Origin: Bacteroidales bacterium
Lineage (GTDB): Bacteria; Bacteroidota; Bacteroidia; Bacteroidales; UBA932
NCBI GenBank assembly: GCA_017615435.1
Contig: JAGAAF010000053.1
Location: 1-35,881 of the forward strand
Direction: 5' to 3'
DNA: 35,881 bases
Shown: piece by piece, positions 1-35,881 of the stretch
Numbering within the stretch: the first letter of the stretch is position 1
How the letters are laid out: every line of letters starts with the position of its first letter
The notes under the pieces: model-generated
Seen by the model: only the letters and a program-made list of their open reading frames with translations
Told to the model about the DNA's origin: nothing
Databases searched by the model: none
Program-made: the position numbers and the translations under genes

Positions 1-387
1 ACTTACAACGATATCGTTCCTGCAGGGTCCAATCTAACGGACGGCGATATGGTTTACGACGATTTTATCTTAGGAATCGGTTATCGCTTCAAGATATCTG
101 ATGCGTTCTGTGTCGCTGCTTGCCTCCACGGGGGACTCTCAAACGGAGAGTACCACACCATCAATCCGTCTGCGACCTACCCGGGCAGCTATTCCCACGA
201 AAGCATTTTCGTGAACCTTCCCGTTTCCAAGGCTAGCGCAATTTTCGAGTACTACATCGATCCAAAATTCTGCATCTTCGTGGTGGGCACTTACACCCAG
301 CAGCTTTCCGTAAGTCCCTTGGCCGACAATTTAGGCGAAGAAGGCACACTGGGTTTCTCGCTGGGCTTCAACGCAACGTTATTCTAG
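1..387 (+). CDS. Outer-membrane beta-barrel-like protein, C-terminal part
   Basis: The frame is open from the first base of the window, so the start lies upstream; about 128 residues are visible. The sequence alternates polar and aromatic/hydrophobic residues in short strand-like stretches (for example ILGIGYRFKI, AIFEYYID, FCIFVVGTYT, GFSLGFNATLF) and ends in Phe, the usual C-terminal residue recognised when outer-membrane barrels are assembled. This suggests the last strands of a small or medium OmpA/OmpW-like barrel. No specific family can be named from the fragment. It is followed by a tRNA gene with its own promoter. Confidence 0.6.
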   Translation, partial: TYNDIVPAGSNLTDGDMVYDDFILGIGYRFKISDAFCVAACLHGGLSNGEYHTINPSATYPGSYSHESIFVNLPVSKASAIFEYYIDPKFCIFVVGTYTQQLSVSPLADNLGEEGTLGFSLGFNATLF

Positions 388-396
388 GAAAATAAC

Positions 397-404
397 TATA
401 TTTG
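397..404 (+). promoter_or_regulatory. -7 box (TATATTTG) of the tRNA-Leu gene
   Basis: TATATTTG matches the Bacteroidota -7 consensus TAnnTTTG and ends 10 nt before the first base of the tRNA, which suits transcription starting just upstream of the mature 5' end. I see no good -33 TTTG. Confidence 0.6.
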
Positions 405-414
405 CCCCACCTAT

Positions 415-495
415 GCGGGTGTGTTGAAATTGGTAGACAAGCCAGACTTAGGATCTGGTGCTTCCAGCGTATGGGTTCGAGTCCCTTCACCCGCA
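415..495 (+). tRNA. tRNA-Leu (anticodon UAG)
   Basis: The acceptor arms GCGGGTG (415-421) and CACCCGC (488-494) pair perfectly, with discriminator A at 495. The anticodon stem CCAGA/TCTGG (442-446/454-458) encloses loop CTTAGGA, giving anticodon TAG at 449-451, which reads CUA and other CUN leucine codons. The T arm carries GGTTCGAGTCC. The long variable arm (about 459-470) is as expected for a class II tRNA-Leu. The 3' CCA is not encoded and must be added after transcription. Confidence 0.95.
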
Positions 496-519
496 CTCGG
501 ACGAACGAGGTGGCGCGGC

Positions 520-1104
520 CTACATTCTACCCCCAAGATTATCGACAACAGGGGTGTCCCCGTCGTAGACTATCCGAATTTCCCGATTGAGCTTCAGGGT
601 CATATCTAATTGCAGGACAGAGCCTTTTTTGTTGTAGACCAATTTATGGAAGACAAGGGTGCCTTCCAAGAAGGAAGAGTTATATTTATGATTCTCCAAA
701 CGCTCGATATAGTTCGCCTCGCTGACTTTATATGTGTTCTCACCCGTTTTCTCAAACTTTCCTTTGTGGTAGTCGTGCCGGCCACAGACATATAATTCTC
801 CATAGCCGGGTACATTAAGTTCCAACTCCACGATTTCCCCCGAATCTGAAAGACTAATTACGGCAGCCTGTTGATTAATATCGATCAATCGCTCTTTCAC
901 GTTCTGTTCTTCAGTGAATAAACACCAATTGTGGTTTCCAAGGCCAAATTCACGGATGTCGTCATTGTAGCCAATCTTGATGTCCACGGCACGTTTCCCG
1001 TCCACATTGATGAACCCTTGATATCCATTACTGATCCTATCCTTGCTACAGGAAACGCAGGCGAGGAAGGAGATCATTATTAACAGGTAGCGTAAACTTC
1101 TCAT
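520..1104 (-). CDS. Putative lipoprotein of unknown function
   Basis: A 194-residue protein with a short charged N-terminus (MRSLRY), a hydrophobic core and Cys residues in FLACVSCSKD, a lipoprotein-type signal; cleavage could be before either Cys. The mature part is mixed alpha/beta with several charged beta-like stretches and ends in VVDNLGGRM. I do not recognise a family. The gene has its own promoter: a minus-strand TAnnTTTG box lies about 38 nt upstream of the ATG. Its 3' end stops 24 nt from the end of tRNA-Leu on the other strand. It is likely an envelope protein exposed to periplasm or surface; function unknown. Confidence 0.75.
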   Translation of the reverse strand: MRSLRYLLIMISFLACVSCSKDRISNGYQGFINVDGKRAVDIKIGYNDDIREFGLGNHNWCLFTEEQNVKERLIDINQQAAVISLSDSGEIVELELNVPGYGELYVCGRHDYHKGKFEKTGENTYKVSEANYIERLENHKYNSSFLEGTLVFHKLVYNKKGSVLQLDMTLKLNREIRIVYDGDTPVVDNLGGRM

Positions 1105-1142
1105 ATAATTTTAATTTTTAGAAATAATATCTATCTGAATTC

Positions 1143-3956: not shown

Positions 3957-3963
3957 ATACTGT

Positions 3964-19959: not shown

Positions 19960-20032
19960 ATAATTGTCAAAATGTCAGTTAAAATACTCCGCTTGTTATC
20001 GGTCAATCACCGTGCCAACGGAAGTCTGCTGA

Positions 20033-20040: not shown

Positions 20041-20046
20041 CATTAC

Positions 20047-20081: not shown

Positions 20082-20132
20082 CAGTCCGCTTTTCGGTAAA
20101 AGCAATTAGTTAGTTATTAGATATTTAGAGAG

Positions 20133-20408: not shown

Positions 20409-20426
20409 TTTTAAAACCTTAATAAT

Positions 20427-20516
20427 ATGCCCAACGGAAAGAAGCATAAGCGTCACAAGATGGCGACGCACAAGCGTAAAAAACGTTTGCGCAAGAACAG
20501 ACACAAGAAGAAATAA
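20427..20516 (+). CDS. 29-residue basic ribosomal-type protein
   Basis: The ATG at 20427 opens a frame of 29 codons with about 60 percent Lys/Arg/His (MPNGKKHKRHKM, then THKRKKRLRKNRHKKK). The composition and the HKMxTHKRKKR pattern resemble tiny ribosomal proteins of the bS22/mS38 (AURKAIP1/COX24) type and the extra small proteins reported from Bacteroidota ribosomes. It lies between hup and a terminator, 53 nt before rng, in a position that suits constitutive translation-related expression. The call rests on composition and context; binding to ribosome or rRNA is inferred. Confidence 0.75.
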   Translation: MPNGKKHKRHKMATHKRKKRLRKNRHKKK

Positions 20517-20530
20517 TTCAGTGTCGCACT

Positions 20531-20565
20531 AGGTCCTCGGGAGATCCGAAGGGCCTTTTTGTTTT
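20531..20565 (+). terminator. Intrinsic terminator or attenuator upstream of rng
   Basis: AGGTCCTCGG (531-540) pairs with CCGAAGGGCCT (546-556, one bulge), followed by TTTTTGTTTT. The T-tract ends 4 nt before the rng ATG at 20570 and I see no promoter between, so rng must be expressed by readthrough. Confidence 0.75.
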
Positions 20566-20569
20566 GTCT

Positions 20570-22132: not shown

Positions 22133-22149
22133 GGACCTCTCTTTATTTA
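22116..22149. terminator. Bidirectional terminator between rng and alr
   Basis: GAGAGGTCC (22116-22124) and GGACCTCTC (22133-22141) form a perfect 9-bp stem whose 8-nt loop contains the rng stop codon; TTTATTTA follows on the plus strand. The alr stop codon lies just beyond, so the hairpin may serve both convergent genes. Confidence 0.8.
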
Positions 22150-24229: not shown

Positions 24230-24244
24230 AAAAACGAAATCATA

Positions 24245-24252
24245 CAAAAATA
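24245..24252 (-). promoter_or_regulatory. -7 box of the ManA-like/alr operon
   Basis: The minus strand reads TATTTTTG (TAnnTTTG). It lies 15 nt before the ATG at 24229 and excludes the ATG at 24247. It is back to back with the DJ-1 promoter, 12 nt away. Confidence 0.6.
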
Positions 24253-24264
24253 CTCAATATTTCC

Positions 24265-24272
24265 TATATTTG
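24265..24272 (+). promoter_or_regulatory. -7 box of the DJ-1-like/rubrerythrin operon
   Basis: TATATTTG ends 5 nt before the ATG at 24278, so the transcript should be leaderless or nearly so. Confidence 0.65.
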
Positions 24273-24277
24273 AAGAT

Positions 24278-24856
24278 ATGAAAGGAATCAATATTTTTCT
24301 TGCGGACGGCTTCGAGGATATGGAAGCCCTCGCAGTGAACGACGTCCTTCGCAGAGGCGGCCTGGACGTGTGCCTGGTGAGCATAGGCGAAGATCCGTTC
24401 GTGGTATCATCGCACGGAGTGACGGTGGGCCCCGAAGCCTTCCTGTACGACTTCGATGAAGACCACACCGGAACGGGACCCGAAGATTTTATGATCTTCC
24501 CCGGCGGTATGCCCGGCACTAAGAATCTTGCCGCAAGCGAGGCCCTGGTCCGCGCGATGCGCGAGCACTACGCCGAAGGCGGTTCGCTCGCCGCCATCTG
24601 CGCCGCCCCCGGCCTCGTACTCAGCCAGTTGAAGGATGTCCAGGGTCTGGAATTCACCTGCTTCGACGGATTCCAGGACTATTTGATCGAGAAAGGCGCG
24701 AAGTTCGTGAATAAGCCTGCCGTCAAGTCCGGACGCATCATCACCGGCCGCAGCGCCGGACACGCCGTGGCATTCGCACTCGAAATTCTCAAGGCGGTCA
24801 ATGGCGAAGAAGCGGCGGAAAAGGTTCGTTATGCACTTATGTTAGACACCAAATAA
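24278..24856 (+). CDS. DJ-1/PfpI family protein (YajL/ThiJ-like)
   Basis: A 192-residue cytosolic protein: [20 protein letters not shown] at the N-terminus, [14 protein letters not shown] in the middle and the nucleophile elbow [11 protein letters not shown] with Cys108. Glu16 corresponds to the Glu18 that polarises the Cys in human DJ-1. The C-terminus has [19 protein letters not shown]-1/YajL proteins protect against oxidative and carbonyl damage, with chaperone, protease or glyoxalase activity claimed for various members. The start follows the promoter box by 5 nt; in-frame upstream codons lie in the opposite gene. It is 13 nt upstream of rubrerythrin, which fits a stress-defence pair. Confidence 0.92.
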
Positions 24857-24869
24857 ACTGATACCAATT

Positions 24870-25418
24870 ATGAAGAAAAAATTCAGATGCTTAGTATGCG
24901 GATACGTGTACGAAGGCGAAAACCCTCCTGCAGAATGTCCGTTGTGCCACGCCAAGAGCGAGAAATTCGTGGAAGTGCTGGAAGAGAGTGAAAAGTTCGC
25001 TTGCGAGCATAAACTCGGAGACGGCCAGGTGGAGGATGCAGAGATTATGGAAGCCCTTCACAATGATTTCCGCGGTGAATGCACCGAAGTGGGAATGTAT
25101 CTCGCGATGAGCCGCCAGGCGGACCGCGAGGGCTACCCGGAAATAGCTGAAGCTTTCAAACGCTACGCTTTCGAAGAGGCTGAGCACGCCGCCAAGTTCG
25201 CTGAACTTCTCGGGGAACTTGTCTGGGACACCAAGACCAACCTCCAGAAGAGGGCCGAGGCCGAAGCCGGCGCCTGCGAGGGTAAGCTCGCCACCGCCGT
25301 CAAGGCCAAGAAACTCGGCTACGATGCCATCCACGACACCGTCCACGAAATGGCAAAGGATGAAGCCCGTCACGGAGCAGGTTTCCGCGGACTTCTCAAG
25401 AGGTATTTCGGAAAGTAA
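24870..25418 (+). CDS. Rubrerythrin, reverse (N-terminal rubredoxin) type
   Basis: A 182-residue non-haem iron protein. Residues 4-33 form a rubredoxin-like domain ([13 protein letters not shown] and [13 protein letters not shown], two CxxC pairs for one Fe). The ferritin-like four-helix diiron domain follows, with ligands in [21 protein letters not shown] and [12 protein letters not shown]. The rubredoxin-first order is that of reverse rubrerythrins, which reduce hydrogen peroxide (NADH peroxidase systems) in anaerobes. The stop codon abuts the convergent S4-protein stop. The redox partner is not in the window. Confidence 0.93.
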
Positions 25419-25814
25419 TTACTCCTCGTCGGAGTCGAAAGAATCCCAAAGGGCGTCGATGGTTCGGCGCTCTTTTTTCGTGGGACGGCCGGCGCCGCGC
25501 TCGCGCCGTACGAAGAACGTTTCCACAGGGGCGCGCAGTTTGTCGAGCTCGTCCTGCGGGGTGAGGTTTTCGGCATACTCGGCCACCAGCACGGCGCCGA
25601 CGCGTTTCTCCAGAAACGCCAGGACCTTGTACGTGAACACGACCATTCCCTTGCGCACCTCGATTACCTCCCCGATTTTCAGAGGCCTGGAAGGCTTGCA
25701 GTTCGTGCCGTTGATCTTCACCTTTCCGCCGTTGCACGCATCGGTCGCCTCAGTGCGCGTCTTGAACGCCCTGATCGCCCACAGATATTTGTCTATTCTT
25801 ACGCTGTCCGCCAT
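25419..25814 (-). CDS. S4-domain RNA-binding protein (Hsp15/HslR-like)
   Basis: A 131-residue protein. Residues 5-65 are an S4 domain (VRIDKYLWAIRAFKTRTEAT, then GGKVKINGTNCKPSRPLKIGE), as in Hsp15, which in E. coli binds 50S subunits carrying stalled nascent chains. The C-terminal half holds basic (RRERGAGRPTKKERR) and acidic (WDSFDSDEE) stretches as in Hsp15. The ATG at 25812-25814 lies 9 nt from a -7 box; longer in-frame versions would run through the divergent promoter and the DUF4290 gene. Role in ribosome rescue is inferred from family. Confidence 0.88.
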   Translation of the reverse strand: MADSVRIDKYLWAIRAFKTRTEATDACNGGKVKINGTNCKPSRPLKIGEVIEVRKGMVVFTYKVLAFLEKRVGAVLVAEYAENLTPQDELDKLRAPVETFFVRRERGAGRPTKKERRTIDALWDSFDSDEE

Positions 25815-25823
25815 ATTGTTCCC

Positions 25824-25831
25824 CAAAAATA
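25824..25831 (-). promoter_or_regulatory. -7 box of the S4-protein gene
   Basis: The minus strand reads TATTTTTG (TAnnTTTG), 9 nt before the ATG at 25814, giving a 5' UTR of only a few nucleotides. Confidence 0.6.
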
Positions 25832-25841
25832 CAAAAATGAT

Positions 25842-25849
25842 TATATTTG
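25842..25849 (+). promoter_or_regulatory. -7 box of the DUF4290-ftsK operon
   Basis: TATATTTG, 19 nt before the ATG at 25869 and 10 nt from the opposing -7 box of the S4-protein gene. Confidence 0.65.
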
Positions 25850-25868
25850 TGAAATTGCGAATTGAAGT

Positions 25869-26516
25869 ATGGACAGCATAACTCTCGAATACAATACCCA
25901 GCGTGAGCCGCTCAAGATGAGCGAGTACGGACGCAATATCCTGAAGATGGTGGAGCAGCTCCGCGAGATTCCGGACAGGGACAAGCGCACGGAGCAGGCG
26001 CGCGCAATCATCAAGACTATGGAGATTCTGAATCCCCAGGTCCGTCAGCAGGAGAACTGGGAGCAGAAGCTCTGGGATCACCTCTATATGATCGCGGGTT
26101 TCGACCTGGATGTGGATTCACCGTATCCTTGCCCCGTGAAGGAAGATTTCGAGACGAAGCCCGTGCCGCTTCCGATGAAGGGTACGAAGATCCGCGCGAC
26201 TCACTATGGCCGTAACATAGAGAAGATTCTCGACCTTCTGGCCCAGGAACCGGATGGAGAGATGAAAACCCAGATGATCAGGTCTCTGGCGATCTATATG
26301 CGTCAGCAGTATCTGATCTGGAATAAGGACAGCGTGTCGGACGAGACGATTTTCGCCGACATCGAGAAACTCTCCGAGTACAAGATCAAGGTTCCCGAAG
26401 GTATCACCCTCGGAAAGGTTTCCGAAAATGCCGATTTCAGCCGTCCGGGCATCGGCAACCAGGGAGGCCAGGGTAAGAACAAGCGTAAGGGCGGCAAGAA
26501 GAACAGACGCAGATGA
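25869..26516 (+). CDS. DUF4290 family protein
   Basis: A 215-residue protein of a family found essentially only in Bacteroidota. Typical landmarks are LEYNTQREPLKMSEYGRNI near the N-terminus, ENWEQKLWDHLYMIAGFDL in the middle, and a second YGRNIEKILD. The C-terminal 30 residues are Gly/Lys/Arg-rich (GGQGKNKRKGGKKNRRR), which would suit binding nucleic acid or membrane. No signal peptide; probably cytosolic. It overlaps ftsK by 4 nt, so translation is coupled. Biochemical function is unknown. Confidence 0.88.
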   Translation: MDSITLEYNTQREPLKMSEYGRNILKMVEQLREIPDRDKRTEQARAIIKTMEILNPQVRQQENWEQKLWDHLYMIAGFDLDVDSPYPCPVKEDFETKPVPLPMKGTKIRATHYGRNIEKILDLLAQEPDGEMKTQMIRSLAIYMRQQYLIWNKDSVSDETIFADIEKLSEYKIKVPEGITLGKVSENADFSRPGIGNQGGQGKNKRKGGKKNRRR

Positions 26517-28867
26517 AATTCCCCAGACTGAAAATAGAACCCGAAAAGAAGGAAGCGCTTGCCAAGCTCACAGGCTTGGTGATAGCGGTTTTTGCCGTTT
26601 TCACTCTTATCGCGATCGTATCATATCTGCTGCATTGGAAGGCGGATATGACGGCGGACGCGCTTCGCAATGCCGCCGGCTCGCTGGGATACCGCTTCGG
26701 CCGTTTCCTCGTGTGCGATTGCTTCGGTCTTGGCAGCCTTGCGATACTGGTGGTGCTGACGGCCCTTTCCGTGAGGCTGGTTTTCCATAAATGGAATTAT
26801 TCTCTCCTGAAGACGACGGTTATGACTCTCGGCGACGCATTCGTGGCCGCGCTTGTCCTCGCCTACGCCGGTCGGCTCTTCGGCGCCGACACCGTCTTCG
26901 GCGGCGGCCTTGGCGGCCACTGCGGCGCTCTCATCATAGGCTGGGGCATCTCAGCTATGGGCGTCTTGGTCACGGGCCTGGTGCTGCTCGTGCTCGTGGT
27001 GTGCGCCGCGCTGCTCAGCAGCTCCCGCTTCGTGCATTGGCTCGGCACCATAGGCACTAAGGAAGAAGGCAAGGGTTACATCGAGCCCGGGGCCGTGGAC
27101 CTTGGAGTGCAGACGGATCCGAATCCCGCCCCGGCGGTCCCGGAACCGGAACCGGTGGTAGTGGAACCCGAGCCGGTGGACTTGGAACCCGAAGTGGAAG
27201 ACGAACCTGAACCGGAACCGGCGGACGCTCCTGCTGTCCCAGGTGAGCCCCAACTGACGGTTATCGAAGATGATGGTCTTAAGACCAAAGTTCAGGAGGA
27301 ACTTCCGCGTATCGACAACCGTCTGGATCCGCCGTACGGTCTTCCGAACTTCAAGTTCCCTCCGCTCGAGCTGCTCGAGACCTACGAGGACGGCAAGCAC
27401 GTGATGACCACGGAAGAACTGGGGCGTAACAAGAATCAGATCATCGCGACTCTGCGTAACTATAAGATCGAGATCACGGACATCAAGGCAGTCGTGGGCC
27501 CGACCGTCACACTGTACAAAGTGACTCCGGCTCCCGGCATCAAGATTTCCGCAATCAAGAACCTCCAGGACGACATCGCGATGGCGATGAACGCCAAGGG
27601 CGTACGTGTGGTGACACTTCAGGATTCGGTGGGTATCGAAGTGGCGAATGACCAGCCTTCGATAGTGCCTCTGCGCGGATTGCTCAATGACGATGTCTTC
27701 CGCAACACGAAATACGATCTGCCGGTAGCCCTTGGATACACCATCACCCAGCAGGTGAAGGTAGTCGACCTTGCGAAGGCGCCGCACCTCCTCGTGGCTG
27801 GTGCAACCCAGCAGGGTAAGTCTGTCTGCCTGAACGTGATCATCGGTTCACTGCTTTACTCCAAGCACCCGTCCGAGCTGAAACTTGTGTTCATCGACCC
27901 GAAGATGGTCGAGTTCACGGCTTACAACTCGTTGCTGAAGCACTATCTGGCAGTGTTGCCGGATGCTGAGGACGAAGAATCCGAGAAGGCGCACGCCATC
28001 GTCAAGACCGCCAAGGATGCGGAGAAGGTGCTTCGTTCGCTGTGCATCGAGATGGACGACCGTTATCTGCTGATGGCGAAGGCAGGCGTGAACAAACTTT
28101 CGGACTACAACAACAAGTTCAAGGACCGTAAGCTCAACCCCGATCACGGACACAGATATCTGCCGTACCTGGTGACCGTGGTCGATGAGTATGCGGATCT
28201 TACTATGACCACCGGCGCGTCGCCCGAGTCGAAGGCGGCCAGCCGCAGCATTACCAACAGCATCATCCGCCTCGCCCAGAAGGGACGCGCCGCCGGTCTG
28301 CACGTGATACTCGCGACCCAGCGCCCGTCCGTGGACGTGATCAGCGGTATCATCAAGAGCAACTTCCCGATGCGCATCGCGTTCCGCACGTCGTCTCGTA
28401 TCGACTCCCAGACCATCATCGACGCGCCCGGCGCGGAGAAGCTGATCGGACGTGGAGATATGCTCTTCTCCGCCGGAATCGAGAACGAGCGTATCCAGTG
28501 CGGCCTCATCGAGAGCGAGGAGGTCCGCCGTCTGACCGATTACATCGGCGATCAGACGAAGTATGGCCAGAGCTACAACACACCGTATTACCTGCCCGTG
28601 CCGAAGGACGAAAACGGCGGGGGAGACGGCGGGTCCGTGGATGTGGGCGATCTCGACGAGCGCTTCGAGGAGGCCGCGCGGCTTGTGGTCACATCGCAGA
28701 AGGCGTCGACATCGTTCCTGCAGACGAGGCTCGCTATGGGCTTTGCAAAAGCATCGCGAGTGATGAGCCAGCTTGAGGACGCCGGCATCATCGGCCCTCA
28801 GGACGGATCGAAGCCACGCGCGGTTTTGGTATCGGATTTGGAGTCGTTGGATGCGATGTTACACTGA
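26513..28867 (+). CDS. ftsK: DNA translocase FtsK/SpoIIIE
   Basis: A 784-residue septal DNA pump that clears chromosome ends and promotes dimer resolution. Four membrane segments lie within residues 20-170 (about 20-42, 74-92, 106-124, 140-168). A short Pro/Glu-rich linker (205-248) follows, then the alpha/beta motor with Walker A GATQQGKS (430-437), and the winged-helix gamma domain (about 712-784, from DERFEEAARLV to the end), which reads polar KOPS-like sequences. The linker is much shorter than in E. coli, normal for the phylum. Overlaps both neighbours (ATGA with DUF4290, TGATG with the LolA-like gene). Confidence 0.97.
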   Translation: MKFPRLKIEPEKKEALAKLTGLVIAVFAVFTLIAIVSYLLHWKADMTADALRNAAGSLGYRFGRFLVCDCFGLGSLAILVVLTALSVRLVFHKWNYSLLKTTVMTLGDAFVAALVLAYAGRLFGADTVFGGGLGGHCGALIIGWGISAMGVLVTGLVLLVLVVCAALLSSSRFVHWLGTIGTKEEGKGYIEPGAVDLGVQTDPNPAPAVPEPEPVVVEPEPVDLEPEVEDEPEPEPADAPAVPGEPQLTVIEDDGLKTKVQEELPRIDNRLDPPYGLPNFKFPPLELLETYEDGKHVMTTEELGRNKNQIIATLRNYKIEITDIKAVVGPTVTLYKVTPAPGIKISAIKNLQDDIAMAMNAKGVRVVTLQDSVGIEVANDQPSIVPLRGLLNDDVFRNTKYDLPVALGYTITQQVKVVDLAKAPHLLVAGATQQGKSVCLNVIIGSLLYSKHPSELKLVFIDPKMVEFTAYNSLLKHYLAVLPDAEDEESEKAHAIVKTAKDAEKVLRSLCIEMDDRYLLMAKAGVNKLSDYNNKFKDRKLNPDHGHRYLPYLVTVVDEYADLTMTTGASPESKAASRSITNSIIRLAQKGRAAGLHVILATQRPSVDVISGIIKSNFPMRIAFRTSSRIDSQTIIDAPGAEKLIGRGDMLFSAGIENERIQCGLIESEEVRRLTDYIGDQTKYGQSYNTPYYLPVPKDENGGGDGGSVDVGDLDERFEEAARLVVTSQKASTSFLQTRLAMGFAKASRVMSQLEDAGIIGPQDGSKPRAVLVSDLESLDAMLH

Positions 28868-29361
28868 TGAAGAGAATTCTGGTTACCATAGTCTTTTGCC
28901 TGCTGGGGGCTGTCGCGCTCCCGGCTCAGCAGAAGCAGCTTGAGGCCTTCCTCGCACAGGCACAGGGCCATAGGGTTACCGTCGACTACGAATACGTGAT
29001 CGCCGGTATGCCTGACATTACGGTAGAGGGCTCGGCCGTGCTGCAGGACAACTGTTTCAGGATGGAGGGAGCGGGGCTTATGATTCTGTGCGATGCCGTT
29101 AACATTTGGACCCTGGATCTGGACAGCAAGGAGGCATACATCGAGCACGCCGGAAAGATGGATTATATGGACTACATCACCGAGCTGACTCTTGAAGACA
29201 ACGGCTGGCTGTCGGGCCTTTACAACGAACCTCTTTCCGGAAATCTAATTCCGTTCACGATCAAGAACATCCAGTTTTTGCCCCCGAGCGGCGATATGTC
29301 CGCCTTCGCCCCTTCCGAAGACACTTTCACGGGCGACTGGGTAATCACGGATTTGAGATAG
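28867..29361 (+). CDS. LolA-like outer-membrane lipoprotein carrier family protein
   Basis: A 164-residue periplasmic protein with signal peptide MKRILVTIVFCLLGAVALPA. The mature part alternates strand-like stretches as in the LolA/LolB fold: VTVDYEYVIAG, ITVEGSAVLQDN, FRMEGAGLMILCDAVNIWT and LDLDSKEAYIE. In Bacteroidota a LolA-like gene often follows ftsK, supporting the call. LolA proteins carry lipoproteins from inner to outer membrane; this short version could have another lipid-binding role. The ATG overlaps the ftsK stop (TGATG). A palindromic repeat follows 8 nt after the stop. Confidence 0.75.
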   Translation: MKRILVTIVFCLLGAVALPAQQKQLEAFLAQAQGHRVTVDYEYVIAGMPDITVEGSAVLQDNCFRMEGAGLMILCDAVNIWTLDLDSKEAYIEHAGKMDYMDYITELTLEDNGWLSGLYNEPLSGNLIPFTIKNIQFLPPSGDMSAFAPSEDTFTGDWVITDLR

Positions 29362-29369
29362 AGACGTTG

Positions 29370-29476
29370 CGTGGCGCGTAAGTGCCTGATCTTCAGCGTA
29401 TTACTAAAAGTCGACTCCGCGTTTTTCGGAGTCGACTTTTGGTAAGTATCTGGTTATCAGCCTGTTGGGCGCCACG
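29370..29476 (+). repeat. Palindromic intergenic repeat, copy A
   Basis: The ends GCGTGGCGC (29369-29377) and GCGCCACGC (29469-29477) are perfect inverted complements. The centre is a strong hairpin: AAAAGTCGACTCCG (29406-29419) pairs fully with 29427-29440 and extends outward to 18 bp with one G-T pair. The element fills the gap between two convergent genes, and the A-tract/T-tract flanks of the central stem make it a plausible bidirectional terminator. Two diverged copies lie at 31202-31309 and 35727-35833. Confidence 0.85.
29402..29444. terminator. Central hairpin of repeat A, likely bidirectional terminator
   Basis: An 18-bp near-perfect stem with a 7-nt loop (CGTTTTT), bordered by AAAA and TTTT, between the convergent LolA-like and YugP-like genes. 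Confidence 0.65.
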
Positions 29477-29478
29477 CG

Positions 29479-30147
29479 TTATCTGCGTCCGCGGGCGATT
29501 CCGATGTAATAAAGGAGAGTGGCGAGCGAGCCTATGGCTGCGATGACGTAGGTGTACGCAGCCCATTTGAGCGCGTCCTTCGCCATAGGGGACGTTTGGA
29601 AATCGGTGATGCCCGAATGGTCGAGCCACTCGATCGCGCGGGCGCTGGCGTTGACCTCCACCGGCAGCGTTATGAACGAGAAGAGCGTGGTCATTGCGAA
29701 CAGGCCTATGCCTATCCATAGTACGGACGGAGTAAGCTGTATCAGAAGCACGCCGAGAAGCAGCACCCACGACACCGCCATATTGCTGAAGTTCACCACC
29801 GGCACCAGCGCGCTGCGCATCTTGAGCGGGGCATAGCCCATAGCGTGCTGGATCGCGTGCCCCGTCTCGTGCGCCGCGACCGCCTCCGCCGCCACCGACC
29901 TTGACGCGAATACTCCCTCGCTAAGGTTGATGGTCTTGTCCGCTGGGTTATAATGGTCCGTGAGGATGCCCCCGACTGAGGTCACCTTCACGTCATAGAT
30001 TCCATTGTCGTGCAGCATCTTCAGCGCCGTCTCCTCACCCGTCAGCTTCCCCGGCACCTTCAAATACTCGTCAAACTTCGACTGCAGCACCGCCTGGATG
30101 ATCGCGCTCGCAATCATCACGGCAATCAGTATTAACCAAATGCTCAT
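29479..30147 (-). CDS. Membrane zinc metallopeptidase, YugP family
   Basis: A 222-residue membrane protein of the Zn_peptidase_2 (YugP) family. The zinc motif HETGH (H93, E94, H97) lies in AVAAHETGHAIQH, and the likely third ligand is the Glu in LPVEVNASARA. Membrane segments: residues 2-20, about 115-137, 140-160 and 198-216. The family is widespread but its substrates are poorly known. The promoter box ends 4 nt before the ATG, so the message is probably leaderless. The stop codon touches the end of repeat A. Confidence 0.92.
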   Translation of the reverse strand: MSIWLILIAVMIASAIIQAVLQSKFDEYLKVPGKLTGEETALKMLHDNGIYDVKVTSVGGILTDHYNPADKTINLSEGVFASRSVAAEAVAAHETGHAIQHAMGYAPLKMRSALVPVVNFSNMAVSWVLLLGVLLIQLTPSVLWIGIGLFAMTTLFSFITLPVEVNASARAIEWLDHSGITDFQTSPMAKDALKWAAYTYVIAAIGSLATLLYYIGIARGRR

Positions 30148-30151
30148 AACG

Positions 30152-30159
30152 CAAAATTA
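30152..30159 (-). promoter_or_regulatory. -7 box of the YugP-like gene
   Basis: The minus strand reads TAATTTTG (TAnnTTTG), only 4 nt before the ATG at 30147; transcription would begin at about the start codon. Confidence 0.6.
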
Positions 30160-30185
30160 CTGAATATTTATTATCCCTCACCTCC

Positions 30186-30217
30186 CCGTATGCAAAATCG
30201 CCCCTTTTTGCACACGG
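30186..30217. repeat. Inverted repeat between the YugP and DNPH1-like genes
   Basis: CCGTATGCAAAA (30186-30197) pairs with TTTTGCACACGG (30206-30217) with one mismatch around an 8-nt loop. No T-tract follows outside the stem on either strand, so it may be a roadblock terminator for the minus-strand hydrolase gene or a protein site. Confidence 0.5.
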
Positions 30218-30227
30218 AGTACAGGGA

Positions 30228-30647
30228 TTAGCCTTTCAAAATAGTCGTTAGAATAGAGTAGATTGTCTCTTCGGTTTCATACGGATGAATCTGGAAGTAT
30301 TTGTTGCCGGCGAGCATAGCGGAGAGGGAGGTGCGGGTCTTGTTGTAGAAGATGTGCACGGAGATGCCGTGGGCCTCGGCGTAGGCGAGCTCATAACCCA
30401 CACCAAGCGACGGGGTGGTGCATTCGGCGATGACGAGATCGGACTCGCGGAGCCAGGCGGCGTCCTGTTCGTAGATTGCGACGTCACGATCCTTCGCACC
30501 TTCATTTTTGCTCAGAGACAGGTCTCCGACGTGTTCGGTCAGCACGATGTGCTCGCGCTGGATGTATTGGATAATACGTTTATACAGTTCGGCATCTTGC
30601 CGCCCGCCGCGGATGGATCCGGCGAAATATACCTTCATTTGTTTCAT
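30228..30647 (-). CDS. Nucleoside 2-deoxyribosyltransferase-fold protein, DNPH1/Rcl-like
   Basis: A 139-residue protein: KVYFAGSIRGGRQDAELYK at the N-terminus, LTEHVGD, and SDLVIAECTTPSLGVGYELAYAEA with the catalytic Glu of the family. These are the landmarks of 2'-deoxynucleoside 5'-monophosphate N-hydrolases (DNPH1), which split dNMPs or damaged nucleotides such as hydroxymethyl-dUMP. The ATG at 30645-30647 is chosen because the next upstream ATG (30656) overlaps the -7 box; a third ATG at 30638 is also possible. It probably cleans the nucleotide pool. Substrate is inferred. Confidence 0.85.
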   Translation of the reverse strand: MKQMKVYFAGSIRGGRQDAELYKRIIQYIQREHIVLTEHVGDLSLSKNEGAKDRDVAIYEQDAAWLRESDLVIAECTTPSLGVGYELAYAEAHGISVHIFYNKTRTSLSAMLAGNKYFQIHPYETEETIYSILTTILKG

Positions 30648-30653
30648 CTCATC

Positions 30654-30661
30654 CAAATATA
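30654..30661 (-). promoter_or_regulatory. -7 box of the DNPH1-like gene
   Basis: The minus strand reads TATATTTG, 6 nt before the ATG at 30647, and 9 nt from the divergent exonuclease promoter. Confidence 0.65.
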
Positions 30662-30670
30662 CAGAATAAT

Positions 30671-30678
30671 TATCTTTG
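30671..30678 (+). promoter_or_regulatory. -7 box of the exonuclease gene
   Basis: TATCTTTG (TAnnTTTG), 15 nt before the ATG at 30694. An earlier in-frame TTG inside the box is therefore not the start. Confidence 0.6.
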
Positions 30679-30693
30679 CATAAAGATACATTT

Positions 30694-31188
30694 ATGCGTG
30701 ATTTTGCGGCAATAGATTTCGAGACGGCGAATGAGCAGCCGTCGAGCGTGTGCAGCGTGGGGGTGGTAGTGGTGCGCGGAGGGGAGATCGTGGACTCGTT
30801 CTACAGCCTGATCCATCCGGAGCCGGAGTATTATCAATGGTTCTGTCAGCAGGTCCACGGTCTATGCGAGGAGGACACCGACTGCGCGCCCGTGTTCCCG
30901 AAGGTGTGGGCGCAGATTGCGCCTATGGTGGAGGGCCTGCCGTTGGTCGCGCATAACGCCTGCTTCGACGAGGGATGCCTGAAGGCGGCGTTCCGGGTTT
31001 ATCAGATGGACTACCCGGACTACGAGTTCCTCGACACGCTCGCCGCGTCCCGCCGCCACTTCGGCCGTAGCCTCCCGGACCACCAGCTGCAGACCGTGGC
31101 GACAGCCTGCGGCTTCGACCTCCGCAACCACCACCACGCCCTCGCCGACGCCGAAGCCTGCGCACATATCGCCCTGAAACTGCTCTAG
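30694..31188 (+). CDS. DnaQ-like 3'-5' exonuclease (DEDDh)
   Basis: A 164-residue single-domain exonuclease. The DEDDh residues are visible: AAIDFETAN (Asp and Glu), VAHNACFDEGCL (Asp) and the ExoIII motif HHALADAEA (His and Asp). It lacks BRCT, helicase or polymerase domains. Bacteroidota carry several such short proteins, thought to act as proofreading subunits or RNase T/oligonuclease-like enzymes. The start follows the promoter box by 15 nt. Palindromic repeat B follows 13 nt after the stop codon. The exact substrate cannot be told from sequence. Confidence 0.9.
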   Translation: MRDFAAIDFETANEQPSSVCSVGVVVVRGGEIVDSFYSLIHPEPEYYQWFCQQVHGLCEEDTDCAPVFPKVWAQIAPMVEGLPLVAHNACFDEGCLKAAFRVYQMDYPDYEFLDTLAASRRHFGRSLPDHQLQTVATACGFDLRNHHHALADAEACAHIALKLL

Positions 31189-31201
31189 CCTATCCGATGC
31201 C

Positions 31202-31309
31202 CGTGGCGCACAAGTCGTTGTAACACAGTGACTTACTTAAACTGGGCTCCGGAAAATGAGGAGTCGAGTTTCGGGTAAAATGCTGATTATCAATAAGTTG
31301 GCCGCCACG
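31202..31309 (+). repeat. Palindromic intergenic repeat, copy B
   Basis: It begins CGTGGCGCACAAG and ends TTGGCCGCCACG. The central arms AAACTGGGCTCC and GGAGTCGAGTTT pair imperfectly (two non-matching positions). Aligned with copy A, the ends, the TTACT segment before the left arm, the GACTCC/GGAGTCGA core and the TGATTATCA-type block before the right end are shared. It sits between the exonuclease gene and the SPFH operon promoter. Confidence 0.8.
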
Positions 31310-31354
31310 CTTCGGGAGAGGGATCTCGGTGAGGAGCAATCAAACAAATATTGC

Positions 31355-31362
31355 TATATTTG
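31355..31362 (+). promoter_or_regulatory. -7 box of the SPFH-kinase-S26-PqqD-ABC operon
   Basis: TATATTTG, 17 nt before the ATG at 31380. No other promoter-like box is obvious before the next four genes, which overlap or nearly touch, so all five are probably one transcript. Confidence 0.65.
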
Positions 31363-31379
31363 AAAAAACAATTATTGAT

Positions 31380-32222
31380 ATGGTTAGCAAAGCAACAAAA
31401 TCAACTTTTTGGGCACTGGCGATTACCACTCTTACGATTGTGGTGCTGGCATCGTGCTGTACGACTATAGATTCCGCTTCGGTGGGTATCCGCTTCAAGA
31501 AGTGGAGCTCGAACGAGAACCTCAAGGGCGGTGTCGAGGGAACTTGCCGCGGATGGGTGTGGTTCAACCCCATCACGGAGCGCATTTTCGAATACCCGAC
31601 CTACATCCAGCGTGTGACTTACGAACCCTTCACCGTGAACCCGAAGGATGCGGCTATCTTCTCTATGACCCCGACTCTGGCCTACCAGATCGACGAGGGC
31701 AAGGCAACCGACATCTTCATCAAGTATCGTAAACCGGTGCGGGAACTGGAGATGGGCTACATCAAGACCTGTATCTTCGAAGCCTACCGTACCTGCGCGA
31801 ACAATTACACCTCTGACGAGCTGATGGCCAACCGCGCACGCTTCGAGACCGAGGTCCGCGCCCGTCTGGACGAATCGATGAACCAGGAAGGCTTCATCGT
31901 CCGCGAGTTCACGACCAAGATCGACCCGCCGGCATCGCTGACAGCCGCTATCAACGCGAAGAACGAGGCCGTGCAGAATGCTCTCAAGGCTGAGAACAAG
32001 GTGAAGGAAGCCGAGGCGGAGGCGAAGATCGAAATCGCCAAGGCAGAAGGTGAGGCGAAGGCTCTCAAGATCAAGGGCGACGGCGAGGCCTACTACAACC
32101 GTGTCGTGTCCGCTTCGCTCAACAAACTCATCGTCGAGCAGTACGCCATCGAGAAATGGGACGGCAAACTGCCTACGTACAACGGCGGCGGTGCACTCCC
32201 GTTCGTTGACATCCAGAAGTGA
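31380..32222 (+). CDS. SPFH/band 7 domain lipoprotein
   Basis: A 280-residue protein starting at 31380 (an earlier in-frame start at 31329 lies upstream of the promoter). The hydrophobic N-terminus ends in the lipobox LASC (residues 23-26), so it is probably anchored by lipid or by an uncleaved helix. Then come the SPFH/prohibitin core (VGIRFKKW; IQRVTYEPFTVNPKD; VRARLDESM; GFIVREFTTKIDPP) and an Ala/Glu/Lys-rich helix (about 195-245, NKVKEAEAEAKIEIAKAEGE) that makes oligomers. Such proteins organise membrane patches and proteases. Its TGA overlaps the GTG start of the kinase, tying it to the RiPP-like cassette downstream. Confidence 0.9.
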   Translation: MVSKATKSTFWALAITTLTIVVLASCCTTIDSASVGIRFKKWSSNENLKGGVEGTCRGWVWFNPITERIFEYPTYIQRVTYEPFTVNPKDAAIFSMTPTLAYQIDEGKATDIFIKYRKPVRELEMGYIKTCIFEAYRTCANNYTSDELMANRARFETEVRARLDESMNQEGFIVREFTTKIDPPASLTAAINAKNEAVQNALKAENKVKEAEAEAKIEIAKAEGEAKALKIKGDGEAYYNRVVSASLNKLIVEQYAIEKWDGKLPTYNGGGALPFVDIQK

Positions 32223-33112
32223 CGGCTGACTACAAAGTAGCTGAACACCTTTTCAGGGTTATCATCCCGGACGGTTGTACGCTCGGGATGGATAACTATA
32301 CTCCTTTCGCGGTAGCAGAGTGCGATGAGCCGCTGTTTACATTGGAAGTGGCCGCGGGGGAGGCGCCGGAGCTGGCGGGCCTCGAGCTGGTGATCGACCA
32401 GGGGGCGGAGCCGGGGGAGACTGTGCTTTCGCTATGGCGCCAGGGAGGCGGCCACGGCTGGCTCGTGAAGATGGCCCCGTCGCCCGGACGCCAGACTTCC
32501 GGCTTGCTGACGCTGACTGCAGACTTTAAACAATCTGCGCTCTATATCCTAAGGCCCTCGGAAGCCGAATTCGCGCTCAATAACTCCCTGATGCTCCAGT
32601 ATGCTTTCGCGACTGCGACACTCGGAACGCTTGAAATGCACGCATCTACCGTGGTTAACGGCGGCAAGGCGTATCTCTTTCTGGCGAAGAGCGGCACAGG
32701 CAAGAGCACGCACAGCCGTATGTGGCTCAAGGCCATTCCCGGCACGCATCTGATGAATGACGACAACCCCGTCGTGCGAGCATACGCCGACTGTCGTGTG
32801 ATAGCCTATGGCTCGCCGTGGAGCGGAAAAACGCCGTGCTACAAGAACGAAGCGTTCCCGGTCGGGGCGTTCGTGCGTATAGTCAGGGCGCCTGAAAACC
32901 GGCTGGAAAAGTTGTCCGTCGTGGAATCATATGCGAGCGTTTACTCGTCCTGCTCGGGCTTCAAGGCCGACCGCGCAATGGGTGACGGGCTGCACTGCGC
33001 AATATCGGCGGCCGTTCAGGGCGCGCCCTCGTTCGCGATGCACTGCCTGCCGGATGAAGATGCGGCCCGCGTGTGCTTCGCAGGCATCGCCGGGGAGGGC
33101 GCTGCCCTATGA
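32219..33112 (+). CDS. HprK-like kinase (HPr Ser kinase C-terminal fold)
   Basis: A 297-residue protein starting with GTG in the GTGA overlap with the SPFH gene; the next ATG (about residue 24) would remove conserved strands. Features: LEMHASTVV (139-146), P-loop FLAKSGTGKSTHSRMW with K162, NDDNP (180-184, Walker B-like acidic pair) and GSPWSGK (198-204), the pattern of PEP carboxykinase-like HPr kinases. The N-terminal 110 residues are beta-rich and specific to this subfamily. Relatives phosphorylate lasso peptides (paeninodin-type clusters) or sit in ScmC-type cassettes. Together with the peptidase and PqqD genes, a peptide-kinase role is likely; no HPr/PTS gene is nearby. Confidence 0.82.
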   Translation: MTADYKVAEHLFRVIIPDGCTLGMDNYTPFAVAECDEPLFTLEVAAGEAPELAGLELVIDQGAEPGETVLSLWRQGGGHGWLVKMAPSPGRQTSGLLTLTADFKQSALYILRPSEAEFALNNSLMLQYAFATATLGTLEMHASTVVNGGKAYLFLAKSGTGKSTHSRMWLKAIPGTHLMNDDNPVVRAYADCRVIAYGSPWSGKTPCYKNEAFPVGAFVRIVRAPENRLEKLSVVESYASVYSSCSGFKADRAMGDGLHCAISAAVQGAPSFAMHCLPDEDAARVCFAGIAGEGAAL

Positions 33113-33552
33113 ATATGACCTTCCCCAACGAAGTGCTGCTGCCCGAAGTGTCCGAACTGCTCGCCCGTGGGAGCGAAGTCGAAATCCGCACGAAAGGCTC
33201 GAGTATGCTGCCGTTCATCGTGGGCGACCGCGACAGCGTCAGGCTCAAGGCGATGCAGGCCTATGCTGAAGGTGATCCCGTCCTCGCCGAAATTGCGAAG
33301 GGCCGTTTTGTGCTGCACCGTATTGTGCGAATCGAAGGAGATTGCGTAACTTTGAAGGGCGACGGAAATCTGCTGGGCACTGAAAACTGCAGGCTTTCCG
33401 ATATCAAAGGCAAGGCTGTTGCGGTAGTGAAACCCCGTGGTCGGATAAAAGACCTCGCGAGTCCGAAGGCTTTGAGGCGCGCCCGCAGGTGGAATGCGTT
33501 GCCGTACTTTTTCAGGAGATATTATCTGGCTATTCTTAGAAGACTTATATGA
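33109..33552 (+). CDS. S26-family peptidase of the SipW/ER signal-peptidase type
   Basis: A 147-residue S24/S26-fold protein. Ser32 in KGSSMLPFI is the nucleophile. Instead of the bacterial Lys, His70 occurs in VLHRIVRI, and Asp85 in LKGDGN, the Ser-His-Asp arrangement of SipW and eukaryotic/archaeal signal peptidases. There is no N-terminal membrane segment; a basic and aromatic C-terminus (FFRRYYLAILRRLI) could bind the membrane. It overlaps the kinase and PqqD genes by 4 nt each. In this setting it probably cleaves a leader from an exported peptide; that is inference. Confidence 0.82.
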   Translation: MNMTFPNEVLLPEVSELLARGSEVEIRTKGSSMLPFIVGDRDSVRLKAMQAYAEGDPVLAEIAKGRFVLHRIVRIEGDCVTLKGDGNLLGTENCRLSDIKGKAVAVVKPRGRIKDLASPKALRRARRWNALPYFFRRYYLAILRRLI

Positions 33553-33818
33553 AAGTAGTAGAAGGATTCAGACTGAGGGAAATCTGCGGCGAGTTCATTA
33601 TCGTGCCGGAGAGCACCGAACTCGTTAATTTCAATAAGATGATCCATCTGAACGCCACTGCGGCCTATCTCTGGGAGCAGGTGAGCGGCCAGGATGAGTT
33701 CACTGTCGAGGGGCTGGCAAAACTGCTGACCGACAAGTATGACGTTTCAGACGAAACCGCTTTGAAGGATGCCAAGGCAATTGCCGAGAAGTGGGTTGAA
33801 ATAGGAATCGCCGCTTAG
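33549..33818 (+). CDS. PqqD-family peptide-binding protein
   Basis: An 89-residue protein with the PqqD pattern: GFRLREICGEFIIVPEST, then FNKMIHLNATAAYLWEQVSG and VEGLAKLLTDKYDVSDETA. PqqD folds are RiPP recognition elements (winged-helix with a beta-sheet) that hold the leader of a precursor peptide and hand it to a modifying enzyme. It overlaps the peptidase by 4 nt and is 1 nt from the ABC transporter. It ends in AA without an extra domain. Its presence is the best evidence that the operon handles a ribosomal peptide. Confidence 0.88.
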   Translation: MKVVEGFRLREICGEFIIVPESTELVNFNKMIHLNATAAYLWEQVSGQDEFTVEGLAKLLTDKYDVSDETALKDAKAIAEKWVEIGIAA

Positions 33819-33819
33819 G

Positions 33820-35565
33820 ATGAAAGATTTCGGACCGTGTTTGAAAGGTGTCTGGAGGCTGCTCCGGACCGTCAGGTGGAAGGTGCTTTTCAGCGCTTTC
33901 CTTCAGACGGTCGCTGCCGCCGCCTCGCTCGCTTTCGTATGGTTCAGCAAGAGGGTAGTGGACATAGCCACGGGCCACCTTGACGCCCCGCTCGGCGTCG
34001 GCATCGGGCTGCTGATAGGCATTATGGCCCTTCAGGTCCTCACCCGTGTGTTCGTCAAATACTATGAAGGCCGCATAACGGTTCAGGCGAAGAACCGTAT
34101 ACGTTCGGACGTCTTCGACAAGGCCCTCCGCAGCACGTGGACAGGAAAAGACAAGTTCCACAGCGCCGATATGGCAAACCGTATGGAGGAAGATATCCGG
34201 GTCGTGACGGAGTTCATCTGCTGCGACATCCCGGAAGCGTTTGTGACTGGCCTTCAGCTGATTGCGGCGGTCGTGATGCTGTTTATCTTCTCGTCGTCGC
34301 TGGCGTGGATCCTCATTTGGATTATGCCTGTGGCCGTTGTGGGCGCCCGTCTCTATTTCCGCCGTATGCGCGCCCTGACCACAGAAATCCGCACCATCGA
34401 CGGCCACATCAACGGCCACCTCCAGGAAACCCTCCAGCACCGCGTTCTGGTGAAGACCCTCGGCAGCGTGGGCGCTTCGCAGGAAGAGTTGGAGGTGCTT
34501 CAGGAGCAGGAGCTTGACCGCACGGTCTCACGCCTTGGCTACTCGGCCCTTTCGCGCGGCTTTATGTCCGTCGGCTTTTCGGCGGGCTATCTTGTCGCTT
34601 TCATATGGGGCGTCCTGGGCTTGAAAGACGGTACCGTCACGTACGGCCTGATGGTCGCGTTCCTGCAGATGGTCGGCCAGGTTCAGCGTCCCGTCGCGAA
34701 TCTGGCGCTCTACATCCCCGCGTTCATCCGTTCCCTCTCTTCGGAGGAGCGTTTGATGGAGATAGGGGAGATGCCCCAGGAGAGTGCGTGTGCGGATGTG
34801 CTGCTTGAAGGCACGCCCGGCGTACGTGTTTCGGGCCTGTCTTTCTCTTACGAAGAGCGTGGCACCGAGGTCCTGTCCGATTTCTCCTTCGATTTCAAAC
34901 CGGGACAAATGACCGTCATCACCGGCCCCACCGGCGAAGGCAAGAGCACCCTCGCGCAGCTCCTGCTCGCTTTGCTGACCCCGACTTCCGGAACTATTGA
35001 ACTATATTCCGATCGGGCGTCTGTCCCCGCGAGCCCGGCGACGCGGTGCAACTTTATGTATGTTCCGCAGGGAAATTCTTTGCTGAGCGGCTCGGTGCGC
35101 GCGAACCTGCTGATGGCCAAGCCGTCGGCCACGGACGAAGAACTGCGCGAAGTCCTGCACCTCGCCGCGGCCGATTTCGTTTTCGACCTGCCAGACGGTC
35201 TGGACACCTCCTGCGCCGAAATCGGCCGCGGCCTCTCCGAAGGCCAGGCCCAGCGCATCGCCATCGCCCGCACTCTCCTGCGCTCCGGTGGCATTCTGAT
35301 CCTGGACGAAGCCACCTCCGCCCTCGATCCCGACACGGAACAGCTCGTCCTGGGACGTATCCACGACCATTTCTGCCAGTCTCCCGCCCCCGGTTCTTCT
35401 GACACCGTTTCTGGTTCTTCTGATGGCGCCCCCGTTTCCTCTGACACCGTTTCTGGATCCCCGTCTTCCGGTCCAGTTCCCGGTTCAGCCCTATCCAAGA
35501 CCATTATCTGCATCACGCACCGCCCCGCCGCCGCGAAGCTCGCCGATGCGCACTTGGCGCTCTAG
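33820..35565 (+). CDS. ABC exporter (fused membrane and ATPase domains) with low-complexity insert
   Basis: A 581-residue half-transporter. Membrane domain: residues 15-320 with about six segments (21-42, 58-80, 138-158, 161-180, 250-268, 272-300). ATPase domain: Walker A GPTGEGKS (369-376), Q-loop YVPQG (414-418), signature LSEGQ (472-476), Walker B ILILDEATSALD, and H-loop ITHRP with H567. Between the D-loop and the H-loop lies a 39-residue Ser/Gly/Pro/Asp insert (521-559) built on a 14-residue repeat (SDTVSGS occurs twice), unusual for this family. No C39 peptidase domain, so leader cleavage must come from elsewhere, such as the S26 gene upstream. Likely exports the modified peptide. Confidence 0.9.
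   Translation: MKDFGPCLKGVWRLLRTVRWKVLFSAFLQTVAAAASLAFVWFSKRVVDIATGHLDAPLGVGIGLLIGIMALQVLTRVFVKYYEGRITVQAKNRIRSDVFDKALRSTWTGKDKFHSADMANRMEEDIRVVTEFICCDIPEAFVTGLQLIAAVVMLFIFSSSLAWILIWIMPVAVVGARLYFRRMRALTTEIRTIDGHINGHLQETLQHRVLVKTLGSVGASQEELEVLQEQELDRTVSRLGYSALSRGFMSVGFSAGYLVAFIWGVLGLKDGTVTYGLMVAFLQMVGQVQRPVANLALYIPAFIRSLSSEERLMEIGEMPQESACADVLLEGTPGVRVSGLSFSYEERGTEVLSDFSFDFKPGQMTVITGPTGEGKSTLAQLLLALLTPTSGTIELYSDRASVPASPATRCNFMYVPQGNSLLSGSVRANLLMAKPSATDEELREVLHLAAADFVFDLPDGLDTSCAEIGRGLSEGQAQRIAIARTLLRSGGILILDEATSALDPDTEQLVLGRIHDHFCQSPAPGSSDTVSGSSDGAPVSSDTVSGSPSSGPVPGSALSKTIICITHRPAAAKLADAHLAL
35398..35456 (+). repeat. 42-bp period repeat inside the ABC ATPase domain
   Basis: The 17-mer TCTGACACCGTTTCTGG occurs at 35398-35414 and again at 35440-35456, a period of 42 nt (14 codons). 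It lies within the 117-nt insert 35380-35496 that separates the D-loop from the H-loop, and could vary in copy number by slippage. Confidence 0.7.
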
Positions 35566-35575
35566 TACCTGCGGC

Positions 35576-35683
35576 CGTGATCTCCCTCACGTTGCCCACG
35601 TCCGTGACCTTCCTTACATTACCTACTTCCGGGACATTTCTCACTTTGCCCACGGCCGGGACCTTCCGCACGTTGCCAACGGC
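35576..35683 (+). repeat. 27-bp tandem repeat, four copies
   Basis: Four consecutive degenerate 27-bp units (35576, 35603, 35630, 35657). Read in the frame of an ATG at 35546, which overlaps the ABC gene end, they give the 9-residue repeats RDLPHVAHV, RDLPYITYF, RDISHFAHG and RDLPHVANG. Differences between copies fall at first, second and third codon positions, so coding selection is not evident. The rest of 35566-35726 shows no other gene. Confidence 0.7.
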
Positions 35684-35726
35684 CATAAGTTCCTTCGCGT
35701 GAAGCTCGCCTCGCGCTCCAATTCCG

Positions 35727-35833
35727 CGTGGCGCATAACGCCCTGATAATCAGCCCCTTCCTGAAACTCGACTCCCGAAATCTCGGAGTCGAATATTAGT
35801 AATTTGTTGAGAGATAGGGACTTAGCCGCCACG
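35727..35833 (+). repeat. Palindromic intergenic repeat, copy C
   Basis: It begins GCGTGGCGCATAACG and ends TAGCCGCCACG. The central arms CTCGACTCC (767-775) and GGAGTCGA (785-792) form the same core hairpin as in copies A and B. A CTGATAATCAG palindrome lies in the left half. The element follows the 27-bp tandem repeat and runs into a G9 tract. Confidence 0.8.
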
Positions 35834-35881
35834 GGGGGGGGCGAGGGACGTGAGTTGAGGGTTGAGGGTTGAGGGTTGAGG
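35833..35881 (+). repeat. G9 tract and GTTGAGG microsatellite at the window end
   Basis: Nine Gs (35833-35841) are followed by four exact tandem copies of GTTGAGG (35854-35881) that run to the last base. Such low-complexity ends are common where an assembly stops; more copies may follow in the genome. Confidence 0.8.

Follow-up and report, generated by a model that had tools for sequence, protein, structure and literature searches.

Restriction-site avoidance is known, is usually mild, and is thought to accumulate slowly. Here we describe what is most readily interpreted as an extreme and recent instance of it, the near-absence of the palindrome CATG from a 35,881-nucleotide stretch of Bacteroidales DNA (contig JAGAAF010000053.1; the whole stretch is called the window). 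In the sections of Rusinov et al. 2015 (PMC4687349) used here, avoidance is put down to orthodox Type II systems that methylate incompletely and cut their own DNA, and at a threshold of Kr≤0.78 it was recorded for 47.9% of the 1774 cases; traces of lost systems are described, and site reduction is said to take a huge number of generations, restoration even longer. For CATG itself, the excerpt of PMC2749054 gives iceA1 as an NlaIII homologue with 52% identity and cites a CATG-specific methylase, hpyIM. PMC3261200 prints CTAG as the nlaIIIR site in its text, and its own reference list has a CATG-recognizing enzyme. For H. pylori, the part of PMC3849833 drawn on gives observed/expected ratios of 0.26 and 0.05 for TCGA in two data sets.

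Tetramers were counted in the window and compared with expectations from its trinucleotides. CATG was the most depleted of all 256 (ratio 0.010), and base composition alone predicts 135.4 copies. The first-pass annotation, read by eye from the letters, had claimed a single CATG at 20216-20219 where a hundred or more were expected, and the computed count agrees on both points. In the rows below and throughout, L numbers denote stretches of DNA and G numbers genomes.

1..35881, no strand: near-CATG-free chromosomal stretch, 1 CATG observed and 105.3 expected (order-2 Markov).
20216..20219, no strand: the sole CATG, in the codons TTC-ATG (Phe-Met), with CATG at the same place in the relatives L018 and L001.
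20133..20408, + strand: hup-like gene holding the sole CATG, predicted HU DNA-binding protein of 91 aa, named from sequence.

The second-lowest tetramer was CTAG, with 10 copies against 37.3 expected (ratio 0.27), and its ratio is ≤0.45 in the Bacteroidales relatives L001-L024 too. GTAC (90 observed/98 expected) and GATC (143/199) were common, as had been claimed, and so was TGCA (105/125). Within 24 chosen genes CATG was found 0 times vs. 97.1 expected; the rest of the window held 1 vs. 10.7.

Codon choice was analysed in these 24 genes (9809 codons; hup is not among them). A C-ending codon never preceded ATG (0/247), as compared with 4165/9538 elsewhere. Phe was encoded by TTT in all nine cases where it preceded Met and by TTC in 346/394 elsewhere, in keeping with the roughly nine of ten Phe-Met pairs for which the annotation had reported TTT. 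Asp, Asn, Tyr, Gly, and Arg codons before Met were never C-ending, which also bears out the T-ending Asn, Asp, and Gly codons that it had noted in this position. In the other two frames, His before a codon starting with G was always CAC (56/56; elsewhere 79 CAC and 58 CAT), and the NCN codons of Ser, Pro, Thr, and Ala preceding TG never ended in A (0/44). What is avoided is the word CATG itself, through the synonymous change allowed in each reading frame.

The window is chromosomal DNA of a rumen Bacteroidales. Its Pfam matches (seryl-tRNA synthetase, Lon, Lnt, RNase E/G, FtsK, alanine racemase, and others) indicate a bacterial chromosome, and a megablast search of a plasmid collection with window positions 20001-35881 gave no match. 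The ftsK gene was used as the query for finding relatives, and the nearest one found was L018, a locus of genome G018.

26513..28867, + strand: ftsK, Pfam FtsK_SpoIIIE with alpha and gamma domains.
16498..35351, no strand: part of the window aligned with L018, in four pieces with 18,121 bases covered, 87.6% identical at the DNA level.

The closest FtsK matches were Bacteroidales genomes, several of them from ruminants, with best-segment protein identities of 93% for L018 (red deer), 89% for L003 and L005, 88% for L002, and 86% for L001. Whether such relatives share the depletion had been raised at first pass. CATG is kept in L018 (44 observed/66 expected), L001 (118/98), and L002 (69/70), it is partly depleted in L003 (23/34) and L005 (6/18), and 51 of 400 genus-mates are depleted by the genome-wide screen described below. 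Of the 41 CATG that L018 carries in the aligned 18.1 kb, one is kept in the window; the other 14 palindromes listed for the same alignment are kept at 40-77%.

Sites were called ancestral when L018 shares them with one or more of L001, L002, L003, and L005. By this rule the window has lost 31 of 32 ancestral CATG; for 15 other palindromes taken together the loss is 163 sites out of 574 (Fisher p = 2e-15), where the outgroups span part of the L018 alignment only and parsimony on few genomes is rough. The loss hazard of CATG in the window is approximately 10 times background (lower bound, about 5). Since 31/32 ancestral copies disappeared after the split from L018, the purge is recent. Eight CATG of L018 occur in none of the covering outgroups, and the window has no new one of its own, so the pressure lasted until recently. 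In L018 it is AGCT that has gone, from 33 of 40 ancestral sites, as compared with 150 of 554 sites of the other palindromes except CATG; the two nearest lineages have thus shed different palindromes. The annotation had proposed long-term selection against CATG. The codon contexts support selection; the long-term part is not supported, because nearly all datable loss falls after the L018 split.

A second pair of genomes repeats the pattern. G068 and its tree neighbour G045 are 90.6% identical where aligned (about 88% in the first contig half, 93.8% over most of the second). Over two stretches, CATG observed/expected is 3/64 and 19/58 in G068, and 59/79 and 43/69 in G045. G068 has lost 33 of 33 ancestral CATG and 131 of 477 control sites, a result that covers the first part of the contig, since the outgroup matches shown stop short of position 15,551. 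The high identity of the second stretch may reflect recent exchange between the two.

Depletion recurs across the genus. Among genus-mates, 7 of the 30 top-scoring FtsK loci had a CATG ratio ≤0.15, and the ratio was <0.3 in 4 of 31 further stretches (30 around ftsK and one methylase contig); another 9 stretches counted with these 31 were picked for depletion of the genome or for a methylase on the contig. We also screened 400 genomes of the genus of G018 by the number of GCATGC per Mb, with sizes rounded and depletion defined as <60 per Mb. The median was 211 and 51/400 genomes were depleted; G018 has 134 per Mb, and the lowest count was that of G306, with 9 in 2.7 Mb. On an 80-row FtsK tree the 15 depleted rows require 14 changes, at least 11 of them forced by well-supported branches. 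Shuffled labels also need about 14 changes on average, so depletion does not cluster on this tree, which is a quick, single-gene one (the short row G040 was dropped, three depleted rows are on long branches, and four labels follow the genome-wide count where the locus disagreed). Relatives seem to gain and lose NlaIII-type enzymes repeatedly.

Two stretches of G306 have CATG at 0/83 and 3/71, and a 3.7-kb contig (L280) of the same genome at 20/28. A further stretch (L279:3149-8115) carries a D12 methylase followed by two proteins, one matching AAA weakly and the other of the DUF2357/PDDEXK_7 kind, with CATG at 15/47; this methylase stretch looks like a recent arrival.

Other palindromes have been purged in other genomes. 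AGCT is low in G033 (L171, 2/43), G036 (L156, 6/34), and L018 (21/49). ACGT stands at 1/40 in G033, and one stretch of G396 (L278) lacks AGCT (0/46) as well as CATG (0/79).

A candidate agent came from comparing D12 methylases between 26 depleted and 26 undepleted genus-mates, chosen after the GCATGC count. A distinct D12 class (168-172 bits, open reading frames of 340-375 aa) was present in the depleted genomes G396, G185, G153, and G334 and in 0/26 undepleted ones. In G185 (L275) the D12 methylase (PF02086, 172 bits; PADLOC Type II methylase, 441 bits) lies near a 94-aa remnant frame, an ICEA endonuclease (PF05315, 389 bits with a cut-off of 24), and a second methylase of 264 aa. The ICEA protein gave no match to NCBIfam or PADLOC models; by eye its sequence contains what we take to be an HNH-like stretch. 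The gene order in G373 and G123 is second methylase, ICEA, D12, and in G334 ICEA adjoins D12 and is cut by the contig end. In G153 another protein occupies the place of ICEA.

L276:5386-6654 (G153): 422-aa protein between the two methylases, in ICEA's place, with EVE and RE_Alw26IDE matches below cut-offs.

Its position makes the 422-aa protein a candidate alternative endonuclease, and the 94-aa remnant of G185 resembles its C-terminus (63%). G396 carries the D12 methylase alone in the same gene order as G185, with no ICEA found, and the two are probably close kin. G121 likewise has the D12 methylase with no ICEA found. When carriers were defined by ≥61% identity, 7 of 400 genomes carried the methylase, and 5/7 carriers were depleted vs. 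46/393 of the others (Fisher p = 0.0005, kinship ignored).

CATG specificity of these enzymes would follow from their kinship and from the depletion that goes with them. Phage records matching the D12 protein are, in 5 of 12 cases, named for the CATG-specific methylase kind (36-45% identity). The ICEA endonuclease has 2024 relatives (clustered at 90%, E≤1e-10); the few that are named among the best 120 belong to Bacteroidales groups, including Candidatus Cryptobacteroides and Alistipes.

Other searches gave little. Matches to the D12, N6_N4, C5, and DpnI families did not track depletion across the genomes searched first, where the strongest D12 matches were DpnII-like and mostly had another methylase next to them. 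The DpnI family had 0/45 genomes above the cut-off and one weak match in G037, and its controls gave none above the cut-off either. In the CATG-depleted G061, a 331-aa N6_N4 methylase (L187:272-1267) lies beside a frame resembling DNA polymerase III, named by eye. The first-pass proposal of a widespread phage-borne nuclease found little support as far as the ICEA family goes: the endonuclease matched 0 of 50,697 phage records, and two relatives of it came from an IMG/VR scan that reaches close relatives only. IMG/VR yielded no relative of the D12 methylase. The endonuclease had a single weak match among plasmids (Priestia, 36.8%), and solved structures yielded nothing for either the endonuclease or the methylase. 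Long open reading frames of the window at 2265-3995, 5191-6348, and 32219-33112 have no Pfam match.

The data are best explained by strong recent selection against CATG from an orthodox Type II restriction-modification system, either NlaIII/HpyI-like or an isoschizomer, to which we assign a probability of about 0.72. The genome of the window would carry, or would lately have carried, such a system. Host CATG that escape methylation would occasionally be cut by the cell's own endonuclease, each CATG lost would bring a small fitness gain, and such a gain would fix in a very large population. In a simple fixation model a rate ratio of about 10 would correspond to 2Ns near 10, in which case a small per-site cost in a large population suffices and a lethal cut per site would not be needed. 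Self-cutting is a step we infer; what the data show is a depletion that is independent of frame and mutation type, recent, fast, and patchily recurrent in the genus, and, in some of the depleted relatives, an NlaIII-type operon. NlaIII-type restriction had been among the agents suggested at first pass; with operons in CATG-depleted genus-mates it is the best supported of them, and for the window's own species the system is one that we infer.

Several observations weigh against this explanation. In the search, 46 of the 51 depleted genomes had no NlaIII-type methylase, for which their being drafts of unstated completeness is a weak excuse; draft gaps, lost systems, isoschizomers, or another agent could account for them. 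ICEA occurs in just 4 of 400 genomes, and an earlier search of 71 genomes found none, although its controls gave nothing either. The carriers G121 (132 GCATGC per Mb) and G373 (124) are not strongly depleted, perhaps because their methylases are recent arrivals, and the depletion in G123 (34 per Mb) is accompanied by a low control count (81 vs. 98). The second contig half of G068 is less depleted (19/58, as given above); counted along the entire aligned contig, 20 of the 93 CATG that G045 has there survive in G068, and the second stretch accounts for at least 17 of these 20. L018 has a mild deficit of its own (44/66), and some CATG loss may predate the split. Other phage matches of the D12 protein are named as FokI or LlaI methylases (30-32%), so the recognition site is not fixed by kinship alone. 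Lastly, in the part of PMC3849833 drawn on, H. pylori has CATG at 1.25 times expectation in both data sets, with CATG being the HpyIP site; such a system therefore need not cause avoidance.

A minor but real possibility is that an NlaIII-type system purged the sites and then vanished, so that a footprint remains. Traces of lost systems are described in the sections of Rusinov et al. 2015 (PMC4687349) cited above. G396, with its methylase alone and CATG at 0/79 in that place, speaks for this reading, and most depleted genomes have no detected system. The aligned part of the window has no new CATG as compared with eight in L018, however, and the loss would have to be very recent.

It is unlikely that 4-bp palindromes are purged in this group mostly by a methylase-less nuclease or by selection on exchanged DNA in a community rich in CATG enzymes; if that were true, chromosomes would act like phage genomes, dropping the palindromes that their neighbours cut at the time. 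It is also quite unlikely that the agent lies outside restriction-modification, as a nuclease without a cognate methylase or as selection when DNA passes between cells carrying CATG enzymes. Evidence for such an agent comes from G064, where about 765 kb (L178, L200-L219, and L228-L247) hold 69 GATC against 2623 expected and 225 CATG against 2780. Whole-genome searches of G064 for D12, N6_N4, and C5 methylases found none, and a scan of the 765 kb for the methylase motif [DNS]PP[YFW] revealed no clear restriction-modification gene. When seven of its motif-bearing frames were compared with PADLOC, five gave nothing and two gave partial matches.

L208:10058-10747 and L209:16116-16973 (G064): NPPY-motif frames with partial mad2 matches in PADLOC (53 and 72 bits).

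GATC is better retained than in G064 where a genome has a DpnII-like methylase pair or the D12 member of such a pair, with ratios from 0.20 (G059) to 0.96 (G035). On the other side, absence from drafts of unstated completeness counts for little, three methylase families were searched in G064, and the enrichment of NlaIII-type methylase carriers among depleted genomes argues for restriction-modification.

The GATC left in G064 are unevenly placed. On its contig 4, 14 of the 69 lie at L203:11683-19225 among ribosomal-protein genes and secY, which speaks against a foreign island; the cluster may stem from codon selection in highly expressed genes or from recombination. Opposing codon selection in highly expressed genes would fit both this cluster and the CATG in the hup-like gene of the window. 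On contig 1, about 6 kb at L228:418-6443 hold 17 CATG and 0 GATC together with a BT4734-like/PriCT_2/DnaB_C protein, and suggest a donor whose DNA is poor in GATC but does not shun CATG.

Mutation bias, for instance deamination of methylated cytosine or a repair process converting CATG, is very improbable. Outer transitions are indeed the commonest changes, with TATG (12) and CATA (11) making up 23 of the 40 sites lost relative to L018; these follow from synonymous choice before Met. By frame, losses relative to L018 went to TATG (19) and GATG (4) in 25 Met-frame sites and to CACG in 6 of 9 His-frame sites. Most thus use the synonymous exit of their frame, which counts against plain cytosine deamination. 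CAC in 56/56 His codons before G requires T to C, and NCA-TG sites change the A; the three frames need different changes, and a single biased mutation type cannot explain them all. The first-pass annotation had also named a protein to which CATG serves as a rare signal. Taken as a chromosome protein, with surplus copies removed, this idea has in its favour the position of the one remaining copy in a hup-like gene, and it is most improbable because related lineages shed other palindromes that are Type II-like 4-bp sites (AGCT in L018, GATC in G064, AGCT and ACGT in G033).

With recent restriction by an NlaIII/HpyI-type system as the preferred explanation, the speed, the completeness, and the lack of phylogenetic pattern of these purges in a largely uncultured genus look new, and among open-licence papers we found no prior report of such palindrome purges in this genus. 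Near-total avoidance between relatives that are 88-91% identical, involving different palindromes, makes the genus a natural experiment on what restriction enzymes cost their hosts and on how restriction-modification systems turn over in uncultured gut bacteria. Words absent from a genome could also predict recent defence systems, even where the genes are not in the assembly.

As in the cases described in the cited sections of PMC4687349, a Type II palindrome is scarce throughout the genomes of some species but not those of their relatives, and depletion can occur without a detected system. In contrast to the threshold used there (Kr≤0.78), the ratio here is 0.01, by another estimator, and near-complete purges separate relatives of 88-91% identity and recur without phylogenetic clustering. 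H. pylori offers a precedent for the near-absence of a 4-bp site (TCGA, in the excerpt of PMC3849833) and differs in that CATG is the word avoided here. The operon of G185 resembles NlaIII/HpyI (iceA1-hpyIM) in having a PF05315 endonuclease close to a D12 methylase; unlike that system, it has a second methylase (about 264 aa) upstream, with the 422-aa replacement in G153 and the methylase only in G396.

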